Below, piece after piece: positions 35,903-38,373 of a DNA stretch of 64,000 nt (positions are counted from its first letter, which is position 1; each line of letters begins with the position of its first letter). Where the stretch lies: NCBI RefSeq assembly GCF_039641995.1, contig NZ_CP087714.1:620001-684000 (forward strand), read 5' to 3'. The stretch comes from Geoglobus acetivorans (GTDB lineage: Archaea; Halobacteriota; Archaeoglobi; Archaeoglobales; Archaeoglobaceae). Below the pieces are notes generated by a model. That model searched no databases. It saw only the letters and a list, made by a program, of their open reading frames with translations, and was not told where the DNA came from. A program made the translations under genes and the position numbers.

Positions 35903-36928
35903 TCAGTAGGGAGTCATCCAGCTTTCGTCGTCCTTGTAGACGGCCTCGTTTATTACCATCCTTCCCTTTACAAGTGGCTCGGGTTTTTTAACCGCCTCAA
36001 TTCTGAAGAGTGTCGATGTGTAGAAGTTGTGGTCAATTCTCGCTCCAAATTTTTGAACTACTGGTAGTTTGTCCTGAAATCTGAAAAAGTTCTTTTCCTC
36101 GTCCGGATATACGTTGAATTTCCTTCTAAGATCTGTAATAACAAAACCCATATCATATATCATTCTCTGTATCTCATACCATTTCTTCCTCGATGCTTCG
36201 AGAGTTGTTATTCCGAAGTATCCGGAGCATCCCTCTCCTTTTAATGCTGAAACTCCTCTGCTGAGAAAGAGTTTCAGACCAGGGATGGTTTCGACAGGGT
36301 CGGTAACAAACACGTCGTATTTGCCTCTGAACTTATCTGGCAGCTCATTCTGGACATCGCAGGTTTCTGCCTCTACGCAGAGCCCGTATTCCTCAGCAGT
36401 TCTGTTTATGAAATCTATGAGCCTTTCATCAGCGTCAATCACACTAATTTTTTCAGGCATTCCTGTCAGGGCCGCTGCTATGCTGAGCAAGTCATCATCG
36501 CCAACCACAAAAATCCTCGACCTCAGAAGGTCACCTCTTTCATAGATGAATTCGACCCTCCTTATGACTCCTTCCGGGCTTATGAATCCCTGGTCAAAAA
36601 CTTCAACCGTTTCAGGTCGTTTCTCTGCTATTTCCTTGTACTTTTTCAAAATCTCTTCAAAGTCCTTGGATATCACGTATCCTGTACCTTCGCAGCTCTT
36701 GCACCTTGTATCTAGGTTTATCGCTCCGAGTTCGTTTATCAGTCTCCTTGCCTTCTCTGTCGGGATTACGTTTCCATTCTCAATTCTGATTATATCTTCG
36801 TTAATAAGTTCGTCTACCAGCTGGAAAAACTCTGGCAGGCTGGCATCCTGCATATCTATAAGCCTGTAAACGGAAACAGGGCCTGAAGAAAGAGCCTGGA
36901 GTATCTGATTCCGTATTCTCCTCATCAT
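35903..36928 (-). CDS. bpsA: N4-bis(aminopropyl)spermidine synthase
   Basis: This enzyme adds two aminopropyl groups to spermidine and makes quaternary branched polyamines of hyperthermophiles. The 341 residues have an N-terminal winged helix, the CKSCEGTGY segment, and the catalytic GDDDL motif in RIFVVGDDDLLSIAAAL (near residue 143). DVFVTDPVETIPGLKLFLSRG is also characteristic. It lies 43 bases downstream of speD, which supplies the aminopropyl donor. Confidence 0.9.
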   Translation of the reverse strand: MMRRIRNQILQALSSGPVSVYRLIDMQDASLPEFFQLVDELINEDIIRIENGNVIPTEKARRLINELGAINLDTRCKSCEGTGYVISKDFEEILKKYKEIAEKRPETVEVFDQGFISPEGVIRRVEFIYERGDLLRSRIFVVGDDDLLSIAAALTGMPEKISVIDADERLIDFINRTAEEYGLCVEAETCDVQNELPDKFRGKYDVFVTDPVETIPGLKLFLSRGVSALKGEGCSGYFGITTLEASRKKWYEIQRMIYDMGFVITDLRRKFNVYPDEEKNFFRFQDKLPVVQKFGARIDHNFYTSTLFRIEAVKKPEPLVKGRMVINEAVYKDDESWMTPY

Positions 36929-36971
36929 GTTTTGGTTCTCGACGGAAAATTTATTTAAAATTTTTTATGTG

Positions 36972-37310
36972 CTAACCACGGTCAAGGACGTAGTGTCTGT
37001 AGGATTCCGGTTTGAACTTCTCCAAAAACAGCTCAAAAGCTTTATCGGTCTTTCTCGTATCTCCACATGTGAAGATGTCGAGATTCACAAGCCCGTGTTC
37101 GGGCCAAGTGTGTATCGAAATGTGGCTTTCGGCTATCAGCACAACACCCGTAACACCGTATGGCTCAAATTGCTTGTAATGAGAACTGATTTTTGTCAGT
37201 CCCGCCTCCTCAACAACGCTCTCCACAATGTCTCTTACCCTGCCCTCATGGGATATCAACTCCTCGGCTACACCATACAATTCTGCGATTATATGTTTGC
37301 CTACGATCAT
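36972..37310 (-). CDS. speD: S-adenosylmethionine decarboxylase proenzyme
   Basis: A pyruvoyl enzyme that makes decarboxylated S-adenosylmethionine. The self-cleavage site is Glu61-Ser62 in IAESHISIHTWPEHG, typical of the small prokaryotic class. Three in-frame starts exist (37319, 37316, 37310). GGTGAT at 37320-37315 stands four bases before the third, so I choose 37310 (112 residues). With bpsA it forms a short polyamine operon. A related archaeal form decarboxylates arginine instead, but the pairing with bpsA favours SAM. Confidence 0.88.
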   Translation of the reverse strand: MIVGKHIIAELYGVAEELISHEGRVRDIVESVVEEAGLTKISSHYKQFEPYGVTGVVLIAESHISIHTWPEHGLVNLDIFTCGDTRKTDKAFELFLEKFKPESYRHYVLDRG

Positions 37311-37319
37311 CTTCATCAC

Positions 37320-37674
37320 CTGCTCCCATTTCTGGCATCGTAAACACCCCTAAACTACTGGAAATCGGGATTTTTTGAAGTTTCAGACCAATTTAATATT
37401 GAATCGCTGGTAATACAAATTGATTTTTAAAGTTTTCGCAAAATGTGGGGAATATTAAACTCCATTTCTAAAACAAAAAGGAAATTATAGGCCAATTTGA
37501 GTTTATTCAGGAATTTATTTGCCATTTCTGGTTAATTCCAAAAATTTCCGGTTTTTTTGTTTATCAATCAATCAGCCTTAATATCTATGTATGCGAATAA
37601 TTACATATTGACGGACATCAGAACCAGGACATCAAAAATATTTTAAACCCACTTTTAAAGTCAAGGCTGATAGT
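37320..37674. other. AT-rich intergenic region between speD and rpl1
   Basis: This stretch of about 355 bases has no gene that I can support. It contains the divergent promoter for speD and, at its right end, two TATA candidates for rpl1 (37637-37647 and 37652-37660). The middle has scattered A/T runs and no clear repeat. Confidence 0.5.
37637..37647 (+). promoter_or_regulatory. TATA box for the L1-L10-L12 operon
   Basis: AATATTTTAAA predicts a transcript start near 37668, just upstream of the leader hairpins. A second candidate, CTTTTAAAG at 37652-37660, would start the RNA near 37682 and leave out the first hairpin arm. Confidence 0.45.
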
Positions 37675-37722
37675 CTACGGAGGAATCCGTAGGAGGCGCA
37701 AGCCGCTGCACTACGGGGTGAT
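37675..37722 (+). promoter_or_regulatory. Structured rpl1 leader: candidate L1 operator with a competing hairpin
   Basis: Three segments can pair in two ways. Arm A CTACGGA (37675-37681) and arm B TCCGTAG (37686-37692) form a 7-bp stem capped by GGAA. Arm B can instead pair (CCGTAG) with arm C CTACGG (37711-37716), enclosing a GGC-GCAA-GCC hairpin (37695-37704). Arm C directly touches the GGTGAT ribosome binding site (37717-37722). The B-C form, with GTAGGAGGC on one side and GCCG then ACTAC on the other, looks like the L1-binding site known from methanogen L1 mRNA. Feedback by L1 is the natural reading. Confidence 0.65.
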
Positions 37723-37725
37723 AAA

Positions 37726-38373
37726 ATGCTGGTTGAGAAAAGTTTGCTTGAAGAGAAAATCGGAGAAGCAATAAATGGCGCAAAGCCAAGGAAATTCACA
37801 GAGACAGTGGAAATGGCAGTGAATCTGAGAAATCTTGACATGAAGAAACCGGAAAACAGACTTGACTCTCTTGTTCTGCTGCCAAAAGGTCTTGGAAAGC
37901 CGAGGAAGATTGGTGTTTTTGCAAGGGGTGAAACTGCGCTCAAAGCTAAAGAGGCCGGAGCTGATGTGGTCGTTTCTCCGGAAGAGATTGATGAACTTGC
38001 CAAGAACAAGAGGGAGGCAAGAAAGCTTGCGAATAAGGTGGATTTCTTCATAGCTGAGGCTCCGCTGATGCCTGAAATTGGTAAGAAACTCGGTCAGGTT
38101 CTCGGTCCGAGGGGTAAGATGCCTCAGCCATTGCCTCCTGGAGCAGACCCCGCACCGCTCATCGAGAGGCTCAGGAATTCTGTAAGGGTGAGGACGAGAG
38201 ACAAGCTCACGTTTCACGCGCCCATAGGGACAAGAGACATGGATGCTGCAGATATTGCAGAGAATGCGATGGAAATCCTTAAGGTTGTTGAGAACAAATA
38301 TGATAATGCACAGCAGATTGTTAAGTCTGTATATGTTAAGACAACAATGGGTCCTGCAGTGAGGGTGATCTGA
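37726..38373 (+). CDS. rpl1: Ribosomal protein L1
   Basis: The 215-residue protein forms the L1 stalk by binding 23S rRNA helices 76-78. The signature region MPEIGKKLGQVLGPRGKMPQPLP is present near residue 113, and the C-terminal KSVYVKTTMGPAVRV is standard. In archaea L1 also represses its own operon by binding a copy of the rRNA site on the mRNA; the structured leader ahead of this gene is a good candidate for that site. Confidence 0.97.
   Translation: MLVEKSLLEEKIGEAINGAKPRKFTETVEMAVNLRNLDMKKPENRLDSLVLLPKGLGKPRKIGVFARGETALKAKEAGADVVVSPEEIDELAKNKREARKLANKVDFFIAEAPLMPEIGKKLGQVLGPRGKMPQPLPPGADPAPLIERLRNSVRVRTRDKLTFHAPIGTRDMDAADIAENAMEILKVVENKYDNAQQIVKSVYVKTTMGPAVRVI

Follow-up and report, generated by a model that had tools for sequence, protein, structure and literature searches.

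A putative L1 operator in the rpl1 leader of Geoglobus acetivorans, and a lineage-specific hairpin that may compete with it

In Methanococcus, the L1 site on the L1 mRNA lies inside the coding region; a leader-position site is said to have been described by Kraft and colleagues in 1999 in A. fulgidus and in halophiles. Autoregulation by uL1 is present in archaea, with mRNA sites that mimic the binding site on 23S rRNA (PMC10931766, a review). The rpl1 leader considered here, part of a window of 64,000 nucleotides (the whole stretch of DNA analysed), carries an element of this already known kind. A sequence-only reading of the same DNA had proposed a two-state leader, in which one strand (arm B) pairs either with an upstream arm A or with a downstream arm C, the B-C form being an L1 site and the A-B form a hairpin that frees the ribosome-binding site. 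The operator-type site has held up under comparison with related genomes; the conserved switch has not, for want of an arm A outside the window genome and one sister species (G000 and G025).

The operon in the window is rpl1-rpl10-rpl12, with the L1 gene first (Table 1). The rpl10 ATG sits one base past the rpl1 stop, and rpl10 is probably co-regulated with rpl1 through translational coupling. Divergent from rpl1, on the minus strand at 35903-37319, is a polyamine pair: an S-adenosylmethionine decarboxylase (PF02675) adjoining a branched-chain polyamine synthase (PF01861). When the sequence was re-read, the arms, loop, GGTGAT and ATG all had the letters and positions first assigned to them. 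The operator itself consists of two helices parted by an asymmetric loop with a GAGGC/GCCG core.

Table 1. Features of the rpl1 leader and operon, numbered from the first base of the window.
Feature	Positions	Strand	Remarks
Predicted BRE/TATA box CAAAAATATTTTAAA	37633..37647	+	Resembles tRNA-Pro promoters; predicted start about 37668-37671
Second TATA-like stretch TTTTAAAG	37653..37660	+	Start near 37683 would exclude arm A
Arm A, CTACGGA	37675..37681	+	Lineage-specific complement of arm B; only G000 and G025
Arm B, TCCGTAG	37686..37692	+	5' strand of L1 operator helix; CCGTAG identical in 52/53 Archaeoglobales leaders
L1 operator core, CCGUAG-GA-GGC-GCAA-GCC-GCUGCA-CUACGG	37687..37716	+	Covariance model and helix covariation
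Arm C, CTACGG	37711..37716	+	3' strand of operator helix
Shine-Dalgarno, GGTGAT	37717..37722	+	Abuts operator helix; SD-like stretch right after operator in relatives too
rpl1 (ribosomal protein L1/uL1)	37726..38373	+	PF00687, E 5e-55; ATG at 37726
rpl10/P0	38375..39388	+	PF00466 and PF17777
rpl12/P1	39402..39722	+	PF00428; last gene of operon

Taken in isolation, the B-C form beats its dinucleotide shuffles by no more than a modest margin (z -1.8 to -1.9); conservation and covariation across leaders put it far beyond chance. A covariance model (R1) of 50 Archaeoglobales leaders has a sole significant site in the window genome, at 37686-37724 (E 2.5e-10; next match E 0.69); of 59 Archaeoglobi genomes, 55 have a single match. 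Three of the four genomes missed (G045, G054 and G024) lack a complete L1 in the protein search, while the fourth, G048, has the only Archaeoglobales L1 leader read (L049) without a recognisable operator; L1 autoregulation has possibly been lost there. In the other 52 of the 53 Archaeoglobales L1 leaders read, the arrangement CCGTAGGAG-(variable)-ACTACGG stands directly 5' of the Shine-Dalgarno (SD) sequence. In a sample of 197 genomes from across the phylum, 64 have an R1 match, and all 27 of the matches fetched from outside Archaeoglobales lie just 5' of an L1 gene. Outside Archaeoglobi, 59 named L1 loci were compared: most have a plus-strand match before L1, many of these matches being weak, and at most of the loci the motif is recognisable by eye; among others, Methanoperedens, Methanothrix, Methanomassiliicoccales and Aciduliprofundum have the operator in the same place.

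The outer helix does not vary inside the order and can show no covariation there; beyond the order, the variants include CCGUAG/CUACGG, UUGUAG/CUACAA, UGCAG/CUGCA, CCAUAG/CUAUGG and GUGUAG/CUACAC, plus G-U mixtures, with covariation at four of the six pairs of the B-C helix. In a table anchored on conserved letters alone, without using complementarity at pairs 1-4, 481 of the 496 cells for these pairs do pair, where shuffles reach at most 455, and four non-pairing rows look mis-anchored by the regular expression. The inner helix covaries as well, from GC to AU, in the model-fitted alignment. On this comparative reading the B-C form is a real and ancient structure, an element before L1 across related euryarchaea; the covariance model, the position before L1 genes and the covariation all bear out its identification as an L1-operator-type site beside the L1 SD. 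A scan of the leader against Rfam 15, at gathering and permissive thresholds, matched no family.

The L1-stalk region of this genome's 23S rRNA also has the GGAGGC...GCCG core (GGCGGGAGGC ... GCCGUCGAUGAGACACCGCC, compared by eye). The covariance model returned only noise from the 23S rRNA and did not detect the L1-stalk region, so that the case for mimicry rests on this by-eye match of the core. In L1 itself the residues TTMG, which we take to be RNA contacts, are invariant. The proposed mechanism is as follows: the hairpin would copy the L1-binding site of 23S rRNA; L1 in excess over free rRNA would bind it; the bound hairpin, whose 3' strand ends at the SD GGUGAU, would block ribosome entry; and repression of rpl10 and rpl12 would follow by coupling. 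Structure, covariation, place 5' of L1 genes and abutment on the SD are directly supported; L1 binding, repression and coupling we infer. With that distinction made, it is very probable that 37687-37716 is an autogenous translational operator of rpl1-rpl10-rpl12.

The standing of the A-B hairpin depends in part on where the transcript begins. The TATA element at 37639-37647 (TATTTTAAACCCA) resembles the same genome's tRNA-Pro promoters within the window (TTTTTAAACCCA and TATATAAACCCA), and all seven leaders from the genus keep the upstream BRE/TATA box. An order-wide TATA matrix scores this box poorly, since the promoter of the genus differs, and the tRNA promoters of the window were used as the comparison instead. 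The similarity puts the start near 37669, and from this predicted start arm A is probably transcribed; a start downstream of 37681, which would have told against the two-state leader, looks unlikely. Another possibility is that arm A belongs to the promoter or the start site and stays outside the mRNA, matching arm B by chance: the second TATA-like stretch could set a start that leaves arm A out, although this stretch, degenerate in one species of the genus (CTTCTGAAC in G027), is judged the less likely promoter of the two, and the tRNA-like upstream TATA places arm A inside the transcript. The same possibility draws some support from the g12 species, where a copy of arm C, CACTACGGGCTGAAAG, holds a constant distance to the TATA box and not to the operator and, by prediction, is left out of the transcript. 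On balance, arm A as promoter DNA is unlikely.

The g12 element also deserves description in its own right. It is a 16-nt sequence that closely follows the L1 TATA box (G039-G044, L116-L121), kept in six species while the next spacer diverges, each genome having a single good copy. It was rejected as an independent arm A: its TATA distance is fixed, the predicted start falls after it, and one pair is lost in G042. Most Archaeoglobi genera have, separately, a strikingly conserved CCG[AT]TAACTTAAAATACC box at a constant distance of 22-24 nt from the operator, on its 5' side, which would put the operator right at the beginning of the transcript.

As a structure, the A-B hairpin is well formed, with a perfect 7-bp stem and a GNRA-type tetraloop (GGAA, 37682-37685). 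Against dinucleotide shuffles it has a z of -3.6, and one of 200 shuffles is equally good; its helix score is reached by 0.13% of 18-nt shuffles for one leader; for the Archaeoglobales leaders together, the figure is 1.9% of 40-nt shuffles. The match is thus unusual for a single leader and not strongly so given several dozen leaders. The sequence-only reading had itself counted a lack of conservation of arm A against the switch, and arm A proves to be confined to two near-identical species, which are letter-identical over 37630-37725. In the 60 nt before the operator, CTACGG is found only in these two and, at a different distance, in g12; in the other five species of the genus, a search for CTACGGAGGAATCCGTAGGAGGC gave no match within three mismatches. 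A-B can show no covariation, because the two carriers are identical there and the other species are without arm A. The sister genomes have no substitutions in 37661-37685 although their four-fold sites differ by about 13%, an outcome expected by chance about 3% of the time at the four-fold rate and about 22% at the distal intergenic rate of 5.8%; the stretch includes the likely start site, and the missing substitutions are weak evidence for a switch.

Could the hairpin serve some purpose unrelated to L1? It sits only a few bases from the predicted 5' end, and its pairing spans GGAGG-like sequence; it might protect the mRNA or hide the SD-like GGAGG stretches upstream of the true SD, but it is not conserved in the genus, and relatives keep the AGGAGG of the operator without any A-B pairing; a role of this kind is highly improbable.

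In a transcript of 37669-37740, the computed probabilities of A-B and B-C are 0.94 and 0.002 at 37 °C, 0.74 and 0.10 at 60 °C, 0.31 and 0.26 at 80 °C, and 0.15 and 0.20 at 88 °C, the last being the optimal growth temperature of the cultured Geoglobus G. ahangari (PMC4600277). The two folds are mutually exclusive and of comparable stability at 80 °C, with computed free energies of -5.24 (A-B) against -5.11 (B-C) kcal/mol, from nearest-neighbour parameters whose extrapolation to 80 °C is uncertain and which omit the non-canonical L1 loop. Neither dominates near growth temperature, so that even a modest L1 binding energy would decide between them. Arm A does lower the computed operator fold in its two carriers. 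As for the idea that A-B frees the ribosome-binding site, the prediction runs the other way: at 37 °C, SD positions 37718-37719 are paired with a probability of 0.96 in the A-B fold and 0.11-0.21 in the B-C fold, with little difference at 80 °C, and GGTGAT is adjacent to the B-C helix, mostly outside it.

The near-equal energies, together with the perfect stem and GNRA-type loop, the probable presence of arm A in the transcript and the absence of substitutions between the sister species, are what a bistable switch would draw on. Both forms would then be functional in this lineage, with A-B forming first during transcription and keeping the L1 site unformed, either raising the L1 threshold or making repression dependent on temperature. 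Against this are the five congeners without arm A and the identity of the two carriers, which leaves no room for covariation; most other genera, moreover, have a conserved CCGWTAACTTAAAATACC box that predicts a start 0-2 nt before the operator, and thus no room for an arm A. No competitor for arm B conserved across relatives was found, and those present elsewhere differ in sequence and place. One relative (G001, L021) has an extra CTACGG within the operator loop, absent from the rest of its genus, which is predicted to capture arm B at 37 °C and to yield to the operator fold at 80 °C: competitors for arm B evidently arise and are tolerated. Stretches of g2 and g4 that are predicted to be untranscribed compete equally well when folded. 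Given all this, a functional bistable switch is quite unlikely. A more specific version, in which a recently evolved arm A has made the leader of these two species a temperature-tuned switch, L1 deciding at growth temperature and the operator being locked off in the cold, has little probability.

The leaders were also compared for an excess of upstream sequence that disrupts the operator. The ranks of g1 and g3 are low, but so are those of g2 and g4, where the stretch is predicted to be untranscribed, and those of g12 are not; the result was rejected as support for a conserved switch. Other short complements lie just upstream of the operator 5' strand in leaders of Aciduliprofundum type (CCCTACC...GTAGG; L142-L144) and, likewise, of Methanoperedens type (CTCCCTA...TAGGAG; L149, L151, L153, L169, L200 and L204).

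The A-B hairpin is most likely a lineage-specific, probably transcribed but incidental pairing, at growth temperature a weak competitor at most, which L1 binding could displace. The switch may be regarded as an unproven, lineage-specific possibility, not as a conserved regulatory device. There is a more general caution here: for organisms that live above 80 °C, folding competing hairpins at 37 °C can give a misleading result. For the operator, covariation documents an L1 leader element in Archaeoglobi, in other lineages of the same phylum and in Thermoplasmata, for which the 50-sequence model could seed an Rfam family.

Among known systems, the motifs of Eckert and Weinberg (2020; PMC7247131) include autoregulatory r-protein leaders, one of them from Archaeoglobi (L4); no L1 motif was found in the portions of its Table 1 and text that were covered. 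The bacterial L11-L1 operon leader has the same effector and the principle of rRNA mimicry that is proposed here (PMC10931766), and differs in belonging to another operon (rplK-rplA) and another domain of life. In the L1 site of this genome's own 23S rRNA (helices 76-78), the GGAGGC...GCCG core is likewise flanked by a helix, whereas the mRNA version is shorter, has a different outer-helix sequence, and has a 3' linker from GCCG to the outer helix of about 5 nt against about 11 nt in the rRNA. The archaeal L1 operator of MvaL1 type is similar in both structure and context: the L1 mRNA carries a hairpin whose asymmetric loop has the GAGGC/GCCG core, a putative mimic of the 23S site, and the L1 gene stands first in an L1-L10-L12 operon; in the Geoglobus version the hairpin belongs to the untranslated leader and immediately precedes the SD.
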